DNA of 64,000 bases from Clostridia bacterium (lineage in GTDB: Bacteria; Bacillota; Clostridia; Oscillospirales; CAG-272), in the NCBI GenBank assembly GCA_017420755.1, contig JAFQOG010000029.1, positions 244,282 to 308,281 on the forward strand. Direction: 5' to 3'. Position 1 is the stretch's first letter, and every line of letters begins with the position of its first letter. This document shows positions 32,412 to 45,213 of the stretch, one piece after another. The notes beneath the pieces are model-generated. The model saw nothing but the letters and a program-made list of their open reading frames with translations, had not been told where the DNA came from and did no database searches. A program made the position numbers and the translations under genes.

Positions 32412-33098
32412 TTATTTAAATGGCGTCATGTCGCATTTTAACATTTCTTTTCTAACAATAGAATATCTTTCATTTAACAAATCACCACTAAAAATAGTGG
32501 TATTTTTTCTTATTGCTTCTATTATAAGCTCAGGATTGAGATTTTTGTCGCTTCCTGCGCAAAGAATGGTGTTAATAACTATTTTGCCATTTTCCTCTCT
32601 TGCAATAAAAGAATAAATAAATTCCTTAATGTTTATTTCCTTTTCTCCACTTTTGGTTTTTTTAGAAACAAAAATATCGTTTGAAAATAGCTTTTCTAGC
32701 TCCAATGCTGTATTTTGATTTATTTGAGGAGAAAATATTTCAATTTCATGATCAATATATACAACATTTTTGAGCTTTTGCTCCGGCTCATAAACCTCGA
32801 GCACTTCCATTTCATCAGGGAAGCTATCATTTAGCCTTTTCTTGATATCGTCTAAGCTCATAAAGGAATTGAGCTTTATATCCATATATTCACATTCGCT
32901 TTCAACACCAACAGGGAGGGGTACTGCAAAAACGATTTTAGGCTGAGGATTAAAGCCCTCACTATACCAAATATCTATTCCTGCACGAACCATAATTCTC
33001 TGCATTGTTTTGGCGAGATCAAGGTGCGATATATACATAAGAGATCCGTATTTTTTGAACTTTATTCTTACTTGAATTACTTGATTTTCGGACACCAT
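32412..33098 (-). CDS. TIGR03936/DUF2344 protein, partner of a radical SAM protein
   Basis: The 228-residue protein matches the DUF2344 family by VRIKFKKYGSLMYISHLDLAKTMQRIMVRAGI (phrase YISHLDLAKTMQR), YSEGFNPQPKIVFAVPLPVGVESECEYMDI. GGAGGTG before the ATG fixes the start. It overlaps the end of the radical SAM gene by 22 bases. The two are nearly always together in Clostridia and sometimes fused, so they likely act in one complex, perhaps in tRNA or ribosome modification; the reaction is not established. Confidence 0.88.
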   Translation of the reverse strand: MVSENQVIQVRIKFKKYGSLMYISHLDLAKTMQRIMVRAGIDIWYSEGFNPQPKIVFAVPLPVGVESECEYMDIKLNSFMSLDDIKKRLNDSFPDEMEVLEVYEPEQKLKNVVYIDHEIEIFSPQINQNTALELEKLFSNDIFVSKKTKSGEKEINIKEFIYSFIAREENGKIVINTILCAGSDKNLNPELIIEAIRKNTTIFSGDLLNERYSIVRKEMLKCDMTPFK

Positions 33099-34924
33099 GT
33101 CAAATCACCTCCGAGCTTATTTGCGCCACAACCAGAGCATTTTTCCTTACAGTTTGGTGTTGTAATGCTTTGATGCGCCTTTTTGTTTTCTGATATCATA
33201 AAGCTCTTCGAAACACCTATATCAATAACATCCCAAGGCAAGATTTCATCATAATCTATTCTACGATTAGCATAAAAGTCAGGATTTATACCACACTCGT
33301 CGAATACATGCATCCATTTATCATAATCAAAGAACTCGTCCCAAGCGTCGAATCTCATTCCTTTTCTCTGCGCAAGGGCAATTGCTCTGCCCAAGCGTCT
33401 ATCTCCCTTAGAAAAGACCGCCTCGAGCCTTGAAACCTTAGCCTCGTGCCAATTATACCTTATTTTACGATCAACTATCTTTTCAGCTAGGAATTGTTGC
33501 TTATCAACAAGCTCCTCAAGAGTGTTTTGAGGCTCCCATTGAAAAGGAGTATGTGGTTTTGGGACAAAGCAAGACACGCTAACAGTAACCGTGATCGGCT
33601 TTTTAGGTCTTGATGGAGTTTGGTAAAACTCATCTACAACTCTTTTAGCAAGAGACGCAATGCCCTCAATATCCTCGTAGGTTTCCGTTGGCAAGCCGTT
33701 CATAAAATAAAGCTTAACCTGACTCTTTCCACCCTCAAAGGCAAGACGGACAGCATTCATCAAATCCTTTTCATAAAGATTTTTGTTTATAGCATCACGA
33801 AGGCGTTGCGTTCCCGCCTCAGGAGCAAAGGTTAAGCCGGATTGACGAATAGAGCTGATTTTATTCATTAGCTCTCTTGTAAAGCTATCTGCACGAAGAG
33901 ATGGTAATGATAAATTTATTTTATTTGGATTTGTCCATGCTAAAAGCTTGTCAGTTGCCTCACTAAGACAAGAATAATCGCTAATTGAAAGAGATGTGAG
34001 TGAAATTTCTGTATATCCCGTATTATTAAATATTTCCCTTGCCTGACAGTCAAGCGTTTGAGCGTTCTTTTCACGAACCGGACGAAATACCATGCCTGCC
34101 TGACAGAAGCGACAACCTCTTATACAGCCACGGAAGGTTTCTAGCATTATCCTATCATGAACCACCTCGATAAAGGGCATTATTGGCTTCGTAGGGAAAT
34201 AAGAGGTATTAAGATCTGCAATTATTCTCTTTTCAACCTTAGAAGGGACATCATCATATTTTGGCGCAAATGATTTAATAGTTCCGTCCTCGTTATATTC
34301 CACATTATAAAGCGACGGAACATAGAAGCCCTTAAGATGAGAGGCTTCTCTTAAAAAGGCAGTTTTAGTGTATGTTCCATCAGTTTTCATGCTCATATAG
34401 AGATTGGCTAACTCAACAAGAGCCTCCTCGCCCTCTCCTATGCTGAAAATATCGAAGAAATCAGCAACAGGCTCTGCGTTGTAGGCACAAGGTCCACCGC
34501 CTAAAATTACAGGAGCATCCTCGCCTCTCTCGCTTGCTAAAATTGGAATTTTAGCTAAATCAAGCATATTGATGGCGGTTGTATAGCAGAGCTCATATTG
34601 TAATGAGAACGCAACAATATCGAATTTATTTACCTCGTCTCTGCTTTCGAGCGCCCATAGAGGAATGTCATATTTTCGCATTTGCTCTTCCATATCAGTC
34701 CATGGTGCATACACTCTTTCACACCAAACCTCAGGTACGGAGTTGAGTGCGCCATAAAGCAATCTAACTCCAAGGTTTGACATTCCTATTTCATATGTAT
34801 CCGGAAAGCAAAACGCTATGCGACATTTAATGTCTTCTTTGTTTTTTATTATTTGTCCATATTCTCCACCTGTATATCTTCCCGGCTTAGATACGGATTT
34901 TAAAATTGAGCTTATATCTTGCAT
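33077..34924 (-). CDS. B12-binding radical SAM protein, TIGR03960 family
   Basis: The 615-residue protein has a cobalamin-binding-like N-terminal domain (about 30-175) and a radical SAM core with the [4Fe-4S] cysteines C267, C271 and C274 in RGCIRGCRFCQAG. Other family phrases are FPDTYEIGMSNLG, LGGGPCAYNAEPVADFFD and LTFAPEAGTQRLRD. The C-terminus has a cysteine set (CKEKCSGCGANKLGGDLTWC) that may hold another cluster or zinc. It is followed by its DUF2344 partner and preceded by the P-type-ATPase-like gene at 7 bases, so they share a transcript. Confidence 0.92.
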   Translation of the reverse strand: MQDISSILKSVSKPGRYTGGEYGQIIKNKEDIKCRIAFCFPDTYEIGMSNLGVRLLYGALNSVPEVWCERVYAPWTDMEEQMRKYDIPLWALESRDEVNKFDIVAFSLQYELCYTTAINMLDLAKIPILASERGEDAPVILGGGPCAYNAEPVADFFDIFSIGEGEEALVELANLYMSMKTDGTYTKTAFLREASHLKGFYVPSLYNVEYNEDGTIKSFAPKYDDVPSKVEKRIIADLNTSYFPTKPIMPFIEVVHDRIMLETFRGCIRGCRFCQAGMVFRPVREKNAQTLDCQAREIFNNTGYTEISLTSLSISDYSCLSEATDKLLAWTNPNKINLSLPSLRADSFTRELMNKISSIRQSGLTFAPEAGTQRLRDAINKNLYEKDLMNAVRLAFEGGKSQVKLYFMNGLPTETYEDIEGIASLAKRVVDEFYQTPSRPKKPITVTVSVSCFVPKPHTPFQWEPQNTLEELVDKQQFLAEKIVDRKIRYNWHEAKVSRLEAVFSKGDRRLGRAIALAQRKGMRFDAWDEFFDYDKWMHVFDECGINPDFYANRRIDYDEILPWDVIDIGVSKSFMISENKKAHQSITTPNCKEKCSGCGANKLGGDLTWCPKIK

Positions 34925-34931
34925 TTTTTAC

Positions 34932-37148
34932 TTATTGTAATAGCATCACCGAGGATATTATAAGCATTATAGTTATCCACACTACATAATATCCAACTAT
35001 TAGAAGCGAGCTGAGGAGCGGAATCATTCCAAACACACTCATAGAAAGCAACGCCACTCCTATAATTGATGCGATAATATTTACAATTGTTCCAACCTTT
35101 CTTATTTTTGCAATTCCCTTGCAAATTGGAATTGCTTTTATAAGGGATCTGGAATGTCCCTTAGAAACAATTCCGCTATCTGCCTTATCCATAACAGTAG
35201 GAATTTCATCGGACTTAGAAAGTCTTATGACTCTTAAATCTGTATTCTTAAACGCCATTTGACGCTTTAACAATTCATTATTGATATTAGGATCAAAGGT
35301 TCTTATTCCTACAGATACACCACATTTGTTTAGATTTCTTACCGTTTGAGCGAAATCCTCATCCATTGTATATTTTATATACATTCTTGCACAAAGCTTG
35401 CCATTACAAGCCATGTACATAACGCTTACATCCTCGCCCGCATCGTCTCTTTCGTTAGAAATTTCGATTCCCTGAGATGTAATGCCATATCTATCAGCAA
35501 ATATAATTGTATCGTTATCTACCTTTACACAAAGATAACTTCTTCCTGAGCACACAAATCTCGCTCTCTTGCTCTTTGTAAATGCATCCTTTGTAGCGAT
35601 TTCGAAAACATCTGATAATGGTCCACCTACAATGCTAAATCCATTTGCTGCATAATACAAAACCTTCTCTATTTTATAATCATTATAGACATTGAAGTTT
35701 TGAAGCTTTACATTATATGGTGGGAATGCGGTTGTATCATTAACAGACACTGCCTTAGAGTCTGAAAATTCATATATGGTCTGTTCACCTATAATAGAGG
35801 TTTCTTCCTCGTATAAATGCTTATTTCCAACGAAGAATGGAACGCTATACATAAACAAAACTCCAACAGGCATAACCATCATAACACCCGCATACCAGCT
35901 TGTCATTGTTGACATAAAGTCTGATCCGCGAAATAGTGCTATAATTGCAACAATCAATGGTACACACACTGCCAATATGTAGTACGGATACATTATTTTT
36001 GCGGTATTTGCAGACTTGTTTGTTCTTGCAAAATAGCGCTTAACAAATTCCGCCTTTTCAACTCTTATAAGCTCTCCTACAAAATCCTTTGACATTGTAG
36101 AAAATGCCTCTATTTCCGCCTCTGAATCATCGTCAGTTGCTTTGCTCAAAACAAACTTGGTATCCTTCGAGGAAACAATGCTAAAGCTATATTTTTCTCT
36201 TGCGACATTAATATAAGAAAAAGCAATAGATAACACACAAACAATTGCGGTTGGGAAGTTATATAGCTGTGGCACAACATTGAATGGAACAAAAATAATG
36301 GTAAATATAGAATAAATTATAGCTGCTCCTAGCGAGAATACCGTTATAGCCTCAGGTATATATTCCTTTGAAATGATCGACTTTATTCCATGATATATTT
36401 GCTCATATGCACAAAGTGCACACAAAGCAAGCAATCCCAAATCTACAAAGAAATGAAGATATGGGTGCTGAACAACATTAAAAATCCCTGTAGGATTTGA
36501 TGAGAACAATGTAATATTCTCTATCAAGAGAAGAAATAGTGCAAAAATCCCGGAAATTATCAGCTTTGTCCTAATGCTTCTTTTTGCAAACTTATACATA
36601 CCGATAATTTCTTTTCTTTGCTGGCGGTCTGTATATTCATAATAATCCGAATGAATGTCGCTTTGCAAGGTTTCTATTTCAGCAGTAGAAGGATTCATAG
36701 AATCATCTACATTTAGAACTGCCCCTGAGCGATCTGCAATTCCAAAAGCCCTTAAAAAATCGCTTTCGGAGCGTGAGCTACTAGCAAATCTCTCGTCGTA
36801 TTCGACATCAACCTGCTCGTGCCTTGCCATAGCACCCTCGGTCCATTCGTACATTTCGCTTCTTCTGTTTTCATCCGCTGTCCTGATTTGATCAGCAGCA
36901 ATTCTGAATATTTCCTCGTCGGGAGAAATAAGCTCTAAATCATCCTCTTCAGTGGAATCATCGCTTGTGGCTTCTTCTCCATCTATTTGAACGGTTTCCG
37001 GCGTAGCTTGACGAGAGGTGCTTAATGGCGCCTCCTGAGCAGTTATAGTGGTATTGGTGTCTGTGCCTTCGGTTGCTTCGCCCGAGTCATCACTTGATGC
37101 ATCTATTGCACCAACATCCATTGATATTTGATCGAAAATTTCTTCCAT
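34932..37148 (-). CDS. P1B-type-ATPase-like membrane protein with lost catalytic motifs (pseudo-ATPase)
   Basis: A 738-residue protein. Residues 1-190 are acidic and Ser/Thr-rich, likely disordered. Eight membrane segments follow in a 4+2+2 layout (about 195-215, 230-250, 265-290, 297-315; 388-406, 417-440; 686-705, 710-735), the P1B heavy-metal pump plan. Aligning by eye, the M4 proline (MPVGV, P427) is about 45 residues before D471, as CPC is before the phosphorylated Asp in real pumps; but DKTGT is DTTAF, HP is GP (GGPLSDV, 508-514), TGD is TFD (617-619) and GDGxND is gone. ATP-driven transport is therefore unlikely; a regulatory or binding role is inferred. It lies between rlmB (8 bases) and the radical SAM gene. 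Confidence 0.7.
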   Translation of the reverse strand: MEEIFDQISMDVGAIDASSDDSGEATEGTDTNTTITAQEAPLSTSRQATPETVQIDGEEATSDDSTEEDDLELISPDEEIFRIAADQIRTADENRRSEMYEWTEGAMARHEQVDVEYDERFASSSRSESDFLRAFGIADRSGAVLNVDDSMNPSTAEIETLQSDIHSDYYEYTDRQQRKEIIGMYKFAKRSIRTKLIISGIFALFLLLIENITLFSSNPTGIFNVVQHPYLHFFVDLGLLALCALCAYEQIYHGIKSIISKEYIPEAITVFSLGAAIIYSIFTIIFVPFNVVPQLYNFPTAIVCVLSIAFSYINVAREKYSFSIVSSKDTKFVLSKATDDDSEAEIEAFSTMSKDFVGELIRVEKAEFVKRYFARTNKSANTAKIMYPYYILAVCVPLIVAIIALFRGSDFMSTMTSWYAGVMMVMPVGVLFMYSVPFFVGNKHLYEEETSIIGEQTIYEFSDSKAVSVNDTTAFPPYNVKLQNFNVYNDYKIEKVLYYAANGFSIVGGPLSDVFEIATKDAFTKSKRARFVCSGRSYLCVKVDNDTIIFADRYGITSQGIEISNERDDAGEDVSVMYMACNGKLCARMYIKYTMDEDFAQTVRNLNKCGVSVGIRTFDPNINNELLKRQMAFKNTDLRVIRLSKSDEIPTVMDKADSGIVSKGHSRSLIKAIPICKGIAKIRKVGTIVNIIASIIGVALLSMSVFGMIPLLSSLLIVGYYVVWITIMLIISSVMLLQ

Positions 37149-37156
37149 GCCCTTAC

Positions 37157-38005
37157 CTATTTAGACGCTCTTTGCATTCTGGCTACATGGCATAGTATAA
37201 CCGATGCCGCCGTTGACACATTGAGCGAATTTACCTTTCCGTACATTGGTATAGATATAATGAAATCGCTTTTTTCCTTTATAAGTCTGCCTACTCCATT
37301 TCCCTCAGAGCCTAGCACAACCGCACAAGCGCAATCGTAATCCGCCTCGTAGTATGGTGTACCACCCGCCTCAGATGAAAAGATCCATATACCCTTCTTT
37401 TTCAAATCCTCAATCGTGGTAGCGATATTGGAAACCTTAGCGATAGCCATATGCTCTATTGCGCCGGCAGACGACTTATAAACAGCAGGAGTAATACCCA
37501 CCGCATGACGCTTAGGAATTATAATTCCATGAGCTCCTGCGCATTCAGCGCACCTTATAAGAGCGCCAAGATTGTGAGGGTCCTCAATGCAATCTGCAAT
37601 TACAATTAAAGGCTTTTCATTTCTTTGTCTTGCAATTTCAAGGATATCATCAACATCTACATAATCCTTAAGAGATGCCATCGCAACAACGCCTTGATGA
37701 TTTGCGCCACCGCTCATATAGTCAAGCTTGGATTGCTCAACCTCTACAACCGGTATGCGCTTTTCGATTGCTTGTGCAACAATTAAGGTCAATGAGCCCT
37801 CTCGATTTCCCTTTCTTACATAAATTTTATCTATAGTCCTATCAGATTTAAGTAGTTCGCTTACAGCGTTTCTTCCTATTACAATTCCAAGATTGTCAAT
37901 TTCGTCATTTTCTCTAAATATTTTATTGTTTCTTTTACCAGAACCCTGTCCTCTTGTTCTATCTGAGGTTGGTCTGTTGTTTTTATTATTTCTTTTGTTT
38001 TCCAT
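37157..38005 (-). CDS. rlmB: 23S rRNA (guanosine(2251)-2'-O)-methyltransferase family protein
   Basis: The 282-residue SPOUT methyltransferase has, after a basic Asn/Arg/Lys-rich 30-residue extension, the TrmH/RlmB substrate-binding domain (VIGRNAVSELLKSDRTIDKIYV) and the knot domain with IADCIEDPHNLGALIRCAECAGA (phrase DPHNLGALIRCAE), VVLGSEGNGVGRL and IPMYGKVNSLNVSTAASVIL. RlmB methylates G2251 in the peptidyl-transferase P-loop. It lies downstream of the sigH-like and zinc-ribbon genes, a neighbourhood also seen in other Firmicutes. Confidence 0.92.
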   Translation of the reverse strand: MENKRNNKNNRPTSDRTRGQGSGKRNNKIFRENDEIDNLGIVIGRNAVSELLKSDRTIDKIYVRKGNREGSLTLIVAQAIEKRIPVVEVEQSKLDYMSGGANHQGVVAMASLKDYVDVDDILEIARQRNEKPLIVIADCIEDPHNLGALIRCAECAGAHGIIIPKRHAVGITPAVYKSSAGAIEHMAIAKVSNIATTIEDLKKKGIWIFSSEAGGTPYYEADYDCACAVVLGSEGNGVGRLIKEKSDFIISIPMYGKVNSLNVSTAASVILCHVARMQRASK

Positions 38006-38494: not shown

Positions 38495-39064
38495 TTATGC
38501 ATCGTTATTTTTCAAATGCCTGATTATTTTCGTCTTCATTCGATAAATTGCGTTATTAACTGACCTTTCTTCCTTAGACAGCCTTTTAGCAATTTCCTTG
38601 GTCCTCATTCCTAGCATAAAATACATTTCAAATATTTTATACTCGTACCTCGAGAGAATCAGAGGCGCGATGCTTCGAACAATCTTTAGCTCCTCGGTAT
38701 TAAAAAAGCTATCCTGCACGACATTATCGTCGCGTCCTTGCTTTCCTTTGCTTCGAGGGCGTTCGTTTTTTCTTTTTTGGGAATTAAGCATGCGAACATA
38801 AGAAATCAATCTATTTCTAATACAGACCTTCGCATATGCCCCAAAGGTTATTTTTTTCTCCTCATTGTAGGTCTCGATAGCCTTAAAAAATGCTATTTTC
38901 GCCTCTTGAAGAAAATCGTCAAAATCTCTTGACTCCTCAGGACACATATTGGAATACTTTTGGGACACACTCAAAAGCAAGCCTTGATATTTTATAAGCA
39001 ATTTTTCAAAGGCGCCTTCGCTTCCCTCTCTTGCCAAAATGACAAGACTCATAATTTCGTCCAT
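38495..39064 (-). CDS. Sigma-70 family sigma factor, SigH (Spo0H)-like
   Basis: The 189-residue protein has region 2 (DFDDFLQEAKIAFFKAIETYNEEKKITFGAYAKVCIRNRLISYVR, phrase FGAYAKVCIRNRLISYVR) and region 4 (LSRYEYKIFEMYFMLGMRTKEIAKRLSKEERSVNNAIYRMKTKI, phrase RSVNNAIYRMKTK). Both match the style of SigH, the first sigma factor of sporulation and post-exponential genes, and rlmB proximity fits the sigH neighbourhood. Exact orthology is not certain; an SigI/SigF-type alternative is less likely. It has a near-consensus promoter. Confidence 0.75.
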   Translation of the reverse strand: MDEIMSLVILAREGSEGAFEKLLIKYQGLLLSVSQKYSNMCPEESRDFDDFLQEAKIAFFKAIETYNEEKKITFGAYAKVCIRNRLISYVRMLNSQKRKNERPRSKGKQGRDDNVVQDSFFNTEELKIVRSIAPLILSRYEYKIFEMYFMLGMRTKEIAKRLSKEERSVNNAIYRMKTKIIRHLKNNDA

Positions 39065-43464: not shown

Positions 43465-45213
43465 TTACTTCACCTGCATTTGCTCTATTTTTCTTTCGTT
43501 TGGCGTAACATACGCTGTCCAATTCACATGATAAATAACATATCCCGGCTTAGATCCGGCGGGCTTTTTAACATTTTTTGCATGAGTGTAATCAACAGCG
43601 ATATTATTGCCCTCAGCCTTTGAATAAAATGCAGCGATTTCGGCAGCCTCGGTAAAGTCAATCTCCGGTGGTTCTTCTCCGTCTGTTTGCAATAGCACAT
43701 GTGATCCGGGGAGATTTTTTACATGAAACCACCAATCTGCTTTTGACGCAAGCTTCGTGGTGATATAGTCATTTTGCTTATTGTTTTTTCCACACAAAAC
43801 TATATATCCATTTGTGGTTTTGAATTTTAATGGCTTTGGCGCTTGAGGCTTACCCGAGCTATAATTTTTCATTCTCGAAGCATATCCACTATGATAAAGC
43901 TCGTCCCTTATTTCCGCAAGATCGGACTCAGTTTCGGCCTTTGAGAGCGCCTCAAAAACAGTTTCTATATATTCAAGCTCTGCTCTTGCAAGCTCTATTT
44001 GTTTTGTAAGCTCTGTTTTTGCCTTTTTAGCTTTATTATATTTCTTGTAATATTTTTGGGCGTTCTGAGCTGGTGTCAAGCGATTATCCAACTCTATTTC
44101 CACCTCCGGACAGCTCTCGTCATAATAGTTTATAACCCTTATTCTTTGCTGACCACGCTTCATAAGATATATGTTCGCTGTTATTAGATCGCCTAAAAGC
44201 TTGAATTCCTCGCATTTTTCGCATTCGGCTAGCTCCTCGGTTTGAATTGCTATTTTTCTTGTAACCCTTGCTTGTGCATTTGTTAGAAGTCTAAAAATAT
44301 CAGCTGACCTTTGACGAATTCTTTCATTTTTACTTTTTTTAGCATAAAAAAGGTCTATCGCCTCAGAAAATGTGCTTATCTCCTCACACACAAATCCATC
44401 TCCATAAAATTCAAGAGGCATATAAGAATACTCAACAACTGCTCCATCGGGGTCATAAATTATATATGGCCTTGCACTATTGCTTTTAATTTTATTAAAG
44501 GTATCAAAAAAAGCATTTGACAGAAGCATTTTATTTGTCGTTTCCAAGGTGGAATCAATATCTAGGGTGCATTTATATGCAATTTGTCTTGCGCTTGAAA
44601 TTGCAATTCCCAAAAACATATTAGTAATGAACTTATCACATTTCATTTCAGGACTAGCCTTATCGTAAGCAAGCTCAAAATCACTTTCCGTAATTTGCAT
44701 TGTATCTAGCTTATCCTGCTTTGGTGGAAGCTCATATTTCATTCCGGGAAGTATTTGACGCTGAGAGCTTGTAGAAAAATCAATTATTTTAAGTGCAGAT
44801 ATTATTTTCTTATCGCTATCAGTCAAAATTAGATTGCTATGCTTTCCCATTATTTCGCAAATGAGATATTTTTTGGATTTATATCCCATCTCATCGTACG
44901 CCTCTAGCTCCAGCTCACACACACGCTCGTATCCAATTTGATTTACGCAAATTAGCTTAGCACCTGCAAGATGCTTTCTTAAAAGCATACAAAACATTGG
45001 TGCTTTGGCTGGATTTTCGGTGCGAGAGTTCGTAAAATGAAGCCTTGGATAATTTGATCCAGCATTTATAAGTAGCCTCAAGCTTTCTCTTCCGGCATGA
45101 AGCATCAATACTATTTCATCATTCATAGGCTGATAAATCTTTTCAACCTTGCAAACTCCAAGTGCGTTTATTTCATTGACAACACATCGGAGCATTCCCG
45201 CATCATAAGCCAT
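43465..45213 (-). CDS. rqcH: Ribosome-associated quality control protein RqcH (NFACT family)
   Basis: The 582-residue protein has an N-terminal NFACT-N domain (MAYDAGMLRCVVNEI, KIYQPMNDEIVLMLHA), a coiled-coil middle (LTKQIELARAELEYIETV) and the NFACT-R domain at the end (KADWWFHVKNLPGSHVLL, HAKNVKKPAGSKPGYV). RqcH binds stalled 50S subunits and adds C-terminal alanine tails, marking nascent chains for ClpP. It was long annotated as a fibronectin-binding protein. Start AAGGAGAG is good. Confidence 0.92.
   Translation of the reverse strand: MAYDAGMLRCVVNEINALGVCKVEKIYQPMNDEIVLMLHAGRESLRLLINAGSNYPRLHFTNSRTENPAKAPMFCMLLRKHLAGAKLICVNQIGYERVCELELEAYDEMGYKSKKYLICEIMGKHSNLILTDSDKKIISALKIIDFSTSSQRQILPGMKYELPPKQDKLDTMQITESDFELAYDKASPEMKCDKFITNMFLGIAISSARQIAYKCTLDIDSTLETTNKMLLSNAFFDTFNKIKSNSARPYIIYDPDGAVVEYSYMPLEFYGDGFVCEEISTFSEAIDLFYAKKSKNERIRQRSADIFRLLTNAQARVTRKIAIQTEELAECEKCEEFKLLGDLITANIYLMKRGQQRIRVINYYDESCPEVEIELDNRLTPAQNAQKYYKKYNKAKKAKTELTKQIELARAELEYIETVFEALSKAETESDLAEIRDELYHSGYASRMKNYSSGKPQAPKPLKFKTTNGYIVLCGKNNKQNDYITTKLASKADWWFHVKNLPGSHVLLQTDGEEPPEIDFTEAAEIAAFYSKAEGNNIAVDYTHAKNVKKPAGSKPGYVIYHVNWTAYVTPNERKIEQMQVK

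Follow-up and report, generated by a model that had tools for sequence, protein, structure and literature searches.

The window, a 64,000-nucleotide stretch of contig JAFQOG010000029.1 from a Clostridia bacterium, holds a minus-strand open reading frame that starts at an ATG and encodes a protein of 738 amino acids, with numerous stops on the plus strand opposite it. The product resembles a heavy-metal P-type ATPase stripped of its catalytic motifs, and its gene lies among rlmB and two genes of radical SAM type (Table 1). The gene is separated by 8 bp from rlmB and by 7 bp from the radical SAM gene, a spacing that suggests that these three share one transcript.

Table 1. Genes and protein features at the locus (window positions)
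Feature	Position	Strand	Basis
rlmB, 23S rRNA (G2251-2'-O)-methyltransferase, 8 bp upstream	37157..38005	-	TIGR00186, 219.9 bits (cut-off 160.15)
Candidate pseudo-P1B-ATPase gene, 738 aa	34932..37148	-	ORF; CopA profile homology; catalytic motifs absent
Acidic N-terminal tail, residues 1-185, probably disordered	36594..37148	-	48 D/E vs 13 K/R
First four predicted membrane helices and shortened A-domain loop, residues 192-385	35994..36575	-	Hydropathy peaks; loop length
Predicted M3 and M4 with P427, residues 389-440; CPC replaced by MPV	35829..35984	-	P427 column; CPC count
NDTTAFP replacing DKTGTLT, residues 470-476	35721..35741	-	Profile alignment
FDPN at the GDN of TGDN, residues 618-621; D619 invariant	35286..35297	-	Column 619 counts
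TIGR03960 B12-binding radical SAM protein, 7 bp downstream	33077..34924	-	Profile match
TIGR03936/DUF2344 radical SAM-associated protein	32412..33098	-	Profile match

The original prediction described the N terminus as about 190 acidic, probably disordered residues. The acidity is borne out by the charged residues counted here and is general among relatives, with a net acidic tail in 72 of the 78 family sequences measured (median length, 221 residues; range, 20 to 616). A simple hydropathy scan of the 738-residue protein gives seven peaks, and alignment with CopA-like profiles fits a 4+2+2 arrangement of helices. The same scan on 79 family sequences gives exactly eight peaks in 29 and from 4 to 11 in the others.

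In some members, such as L150, L127 and L120, the acidic tail opens with a motif like FSLDDILAEF, and the window's own group has by eye a different short motif, MEEKxDQIxMD. Outside the window's group, a pattern for the family motif, written after the sequences had been inspected, matches 20 of 51 members where shuffled sequences would give 0.4; inside the group, the figures are 4 of 28 and 0.2. The possibility that DDILAEF is a docking tag common to other proteins was also considered. A DNA pattern for DDILAEF gave 30 matches over 59 genomes, compared with 5 for the reversed pattern; 6 of the 30 belong to the family and 24 do not. Among the latter, judged by eye, 12 look RecF-like and 2 SecA-like, with the motif internal, and the few matches near an N terminus are very short ORFs. 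The idea of a common tag was therefore rejected.

Gene neighborhood

The surroundings of the gene were compared at related loci, where rlmB stands out as the one neighbor kept across the order while the others change. It lies directly upstream at all 27 named loci. In a set of 40 loci that spans 23 of the order's families and was selected for holding the family gene, 39 have rlmB upstream on the gene's own strand, 38 of them with a gap of at most 182 bp or overlapping predicted starts; the remaining locus, L116, lacks it on both strands of its 11 kb. Neighbor families were counted at the 36 of the 40 loci where the first gene-calling pass had called the family gene: rlmB is a neighbor in 32, an elongation factor EF-G paralogue is next with 10, and any other family reaches at most 4. 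The EF-G paralogue lies downstream of the pseudo-ATPase gene and is the immediate next gene in 8 of the 10 cases; all six that were scanned (L126, L131, L132, L147, L153 and L155) are of the NF009381 type.

The radical SAM gene is a more local companion. It is present at 25 of the 27 named loci, nearly all of them close relatives of the window, and at 3 of the 36 loci elsewhere, all in the window's own family. A run of genes for DUF4364, a sigma factor, a zinc-ribbon protein, RlmB, the pseudo-ATPase, TIGR03960 and TIGR03936 recurs in the window's close group. The original prediction had called an rlmB-radical SAM operon unexpected for a metal pump and had asked whether orthologues keep the same neighbors. 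On the rlmB side they do, across the order (38 of 40 loci), and in the loci read the radical SAM side is confined to the window's family. Translational coupling or an old gene order, instead of function, may explain why rlmB lies next to the gene.

Two further genes of the window deserve mention. The sigma-70 family factor of the recurring run (38495-39064) is nearest to SigH and falls far under the SigH cut-offs. Some 6 kb upstream of the pseudo-ATPase gene and on its strand, at 43465-45213, is an RqcH/EfbA-like gene, of a ribosome-rescue family, which matches NF038240 (E 2.4e-119) and NF041120 (E 8.3e-55), both under cut-off.

Kinship with P1B-type ATPases

Homology to P-type ATPases is convincing at the profile level only, as single-sequence scores are weak. 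Taken singly, the 738-residue protein reaches E 0.015 for the Pfam model E1-E2_ATPase and 0.094 for a CopA structure, and a search of NCBIfam with it gave no match. A profile of 40 members searched against the PDB finds Legionella CopA (3rfu) as its best match at E 3.9e-32, and the 30 distinct sequences at E 0.001 or below are P-type ATPases without exception. Compared by HHalign with 13 real CopA-like pumps, the same profile aligns over 542 columns at E 2.3e-38 and probability 100, and one restricted to 20 close relatives still gives E 2.5e-17. Some members are recognizable singly: 22 of the 40 match the heavy-metal model TIGR01525 at E 0.001 or below (best E, 7.1e-12) and 15 match the CopA model; none of the 40 was matched in a Pfam scan at E 0.001.

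Judged by these profiles, the gene product is a true relative of P1B-type ATPases across the membrane, P and N domains. The fold kinship proposed from the window's letters thus found clear homology in the profile searches that had been named as its possible refutation, and the nearly ungapped alignment seen by eye from the M4 region to the phosphorylation site recurs in the profile comparison, which is ungapped from M3/M4. In the PDB search, the best copper pump scores 114.6 bits, against 42.9 and 27.4 for cadmium and zinc pumps, and the ancestor of the family was therefore most likely a pump of the CopA (P1B) type. A tree in which six real pumps split off with support of 1.0 took in CopA-like pumps alone and has long branches, so it does not show where the family originated.

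Motif loss and the former catalytic site

Motifs were followed in 79 distinct family sequences (124 rows minus exact duplicates), of which 25 come from the window's close group; a few of the 79 are incomplete. In the profile alignment with CopA-like pumps, DKTGT pairs with N470-D471-T472-T473-A474, so that the catalytic Asp is replaced by Asn470 and the Lys by Asp471. The Asp column varies across the family (N in 25 sequences, D in 15, S in 10, R in 8, T in 8, A in 5, Y in 3, and others), and the Lys column is mostly D (64, with A in 7, E in 4, S in 4 and K never). The string DKTG occurs in 4 of the 79, always inside the N-terminal tail. The original reading of the site as DTTAF was right about the loss of DKTGT and one residue off in register.

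The other losses read from the window hold as they were described. The HP of the N domain is G509-P510, and residue 509 is H in none of the 79; TGD is T617-F618-D619; and GDGxND is missing here and from every one of the 79. A TGD string occurs somewhere in 5 of 42 family sequences; at the motif site itself, the seven residues most frequent in column 618 do not include G. The metal-binding CPC is likewise absent from all 79 whole sequences scanned. Its site reads MPV in the 738-residue protein; a single Cys at 426 or 428 is found in 4 of the 79, and the M4 proline P427 is kept in 70. In the A-domain loop, whose median length is 70 residues in the family and 135 in 13 real pumps, the string TGE is present in 3 of 79 family sequences, not including the window's protein, as opposed to 12 of the 13 pumps. 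The distance between the DKTGT and TGD sites is nearly unchanged, 149 residues in the family versus 154 in real pumps. Lengths from the TGD site to M5 were set aside, since trimmed alignment ends make them unreliable for the real pumps.

Relatives are just as depleted. The best ORF at each of 42 loci within the order lacks both DKTGT and GDGxND, and among the 79 sequences DKTGT is never found at its site or GDGxND anywhere, so that orthologues with both motifs intact, named as a possible refutation, did not turn up. The sequences give good support to the original suggestion of a pump turned non-enzymatic, and we consider it highly probable that the protein is non-catalytic. By its sequence, the 738-residue protein fits the class of pseudoenzymes, homologues of enzymes that lack essential catalytic residues and are kept by selection.

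Over 536 columns, weighted conservation is highest at W724, Y593, D619, Y578, F475, a glycine at 551 (A in the window's genus), N621, F515 and P476. Five of these nine, Y593 (Y in 73 of 79), D619 (D in 78, the remaining one a gap), F475 (F in 69), N621 (N in 71) and P476 (P in 71), sit at or beside former catalytic motifs, and for this reason the site looks rebuilt, not simply eroded. The other four (W724, Y578, glycine 551 and F515) lie away from the former catalytic motifs that could be placed. Groups differ in two glycines of the N domain. Among sequences from beyond the window's genus group, 50 of 54 keep the latter G of GxG and 54 of 54 the G of the GN motif; in the window's group, the former is Y in 23 of 25 and the latter A in 24 of 25. 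Nucleotide binding is thus possible elsewhere in the family and unlikely in the window's group.

Distribution, selection and possible function

A search with the single protein found relatives in 33 of 38 related genomes: 20 of the 23 from the window's genus, a count that takes in the window's genome, and 13 of the 15 from other parts of the order, where identity is 17 to 24%. The relatives that could be named come from uncultured Clostridia, mostly of deer, goat and sheep gut. Profile A2 extends this to nearly the whole order, probably Oscillospirales. It has matches in 197 of 197 genomes, and the family is clear in 192 (confirmed where loci were read, counted on score for the remainder), every strong match being at E 7.4e-45 or better. 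Five weak matches, E 4.6e-20 to 5.1e-4, were set apart by reading the score table. One of these genomes, G048, probably holds the family gene: rlmB stands at a contig end and is followed by a cut-off ORF of 147 residues that matches the family at E 0.0009. The other four (G082, G149, G107 and G121) have no clear family gene and only distant relatives of rlmB, and an assembly gap may account for both absences; with that possibility, joint loss of the two genes was set aside.

Outside the order the same kind of search leads to ordinary pumps. Profile matches were found in 281 of 293 genomes of the class and 199 of 199 of the phylum, where the best ones outside the order, E 3.5e-30 and 5.6e-34, respectively, are both real pumps. 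All 26 matches that were opened (16, then 10 elsewhere in the phylum) are ordinary pumps with DKTGT and GDGxND, a count that covers the higher-scoring matches.

Purifying selection on the family gene looks strong. Pairwise dN/dS is 0.041 to 0.123 in the 10 of 12 pairs that give a value, against 0.034 to 0.127 for rlmB (11 of 12 pairs); these ratios are rough, since 11 of the 12 pairs either have dS above 1 or yield no dS, and the sole unsaturated pair is the one at 0.041. Where parts of the protein were compared separately, in eight pairs, the tail reaches 0.27 to 0.31 in two. RlmB is the better conserved of the two proteins in 10 of 12 pairs; they are level in one (0.977 and 0.976), and in one (L093, L113) the pseudo-ATPase is ahead. 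In genome G044, the family gene (L133) is split by a stop codon, through sequencing error or a rare loss.

We propose, at a probability of about 60%, that the pseudo-ATPase works in the membrane as a scaffold or receptor that no longer cycles, perhaps in connection with ribosome maturation; a scaffold or receptor role, as against transport, is fairly probable. The membrane helices would anchor the protein. Its cytosolic P and N domains would not cycle and would retain the rebuilt pocket as a binding module, with D471, F475, P476, Y593, D619 and N621 holding a partner or small ligand, and the acidic tail, long and opening with a short motif, would recruit a second partner. A partner from ribosome maturation, or from translation at the membrane, is suggested by the constancy of rlmB and, in part of the order, by the EF-G paralogue that lies downstream. 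Drawn from gene order alone, this ribosome link is tentative, possible but unlikely. More doubtful is the fuller picture, in which the protein would provide, throughout the order, a platform at the membrane on which ribosome maturation or translation could dock, with its catalytic site turned into a ligand or partner pocket and its gene in an operon with rlmB.

Several other roles can be weighed against this one. The window's own genome holds two P1B pumps over the family cut-off (G000:C29 and G000:C25), both with DKTGT, GDGxND, TGE, HP and a CPC-type motif, the former also with TGD. The pseudo-ATPase gene is therefore not the sole pump-like gene of its genome and need not pump metal. The pseudo-ATPase could instead be a regulatory subunit that pairs with these real pumps and modulates them, a role consistent with the kept length of the DKTGT-to-TGD stretch (149 versus 154 residues) and with matches to TIGR01525 in all 59 order genomes searched, 57 over cut-off. 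Real pumps are nearly universal, however, being over cut-off in 13 of 14 control genomes, so that such co-occurrence says little. The family gene, moreover, pairs with rlmB and not with pumps: a real pump is near it at 1 of 67 loci (L123), and four other pump-profile matches proved to be the family gene itself. We regard a pump subunit as improbable. A passive channel or carrier, its helices conducting an ion without ATP, would agree with the membrane segments covered by the alignment and with P427 (P in 70 of 79). The loss of CPC from M4, which is complete in the 79 sequences, speaks against a metal channel, and no polar membrane motif was recognized among the 25 best-conserved columns, leaving this role quite improbable.

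A new enzymatic use of the site is a similarly slim prospect. The protein could be a hydrolase or phosphotransferase with a rebuilt, HAD-like site that makes use of D471 or D619; D619 is D in all but the one gapped sequence, D471 is D in 64, and 35 of 79 have a further D at residue 473, resembling the DxD that HAD phosphatases carry. Against this, the Mg-binding GDGxND segment is missing from all 79, and 15 sequences have A, S or E at residue 471. Finally, weak single-sequence scores and the internal stop in the G044 copy might point to a decaying pseudogene or to chance resemblance to P-type ATPases, which is hardly credible given dN/dS of 0.04 to 0.12 where computable, clear presence in 192 of 197 order genomes and a profile match at E 2.3e-38.

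P-type ATPases rank among the most studied ion pumps, and we know of no widespread bacterial family that keeps the P-type fold and has given up phosphorylation. Searches of open-access literature, which excludes most subscription journals, turned up no title or abstract opening on a family of P-type pseudo-ATPases. A gene present in almost all sampled genomes of an order and kept under selection points to a function that awaits a name, and the family offers a natural test of what a P-type scaffold does without ATP. It also calls for caution in annotation, as 22 of 40 motif-less members match the heavy-metal ATPase model TIGR01525, if weakly.

The closest known relatives are the CopA-type P1B-1 ATPases (TIGR01525, NF007952; Legionella CopA, 3rfu), with which the family shares homology in the membrane, P and N domains, the order of these domains and a nearly equal DKTGT-to-TGD spacing. 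Unlike them, it has no DKTGT at the site, HP, GDGxND or CPC (79 of 79) and mostly no TGE in the A loop (absent in 76 of 79), its A-domain loop is about half as long, and a long acidic tail stands where CopA has metal-binding domains. The functionally uncharacterized P-type ATPase families (FUPA) are also P-type relatives without a known substrate; they are set apart in that they are mostly counted as ATPases. Transporter homologues that no longer transport, such as UhpC and Snf3/Rgt2, act as sensors, and iRhoms are pseudo-proteases. Their folds differ from that of the family described here, which would resemble them as a membrane protein kept by selection after transport or catalysis was lost.
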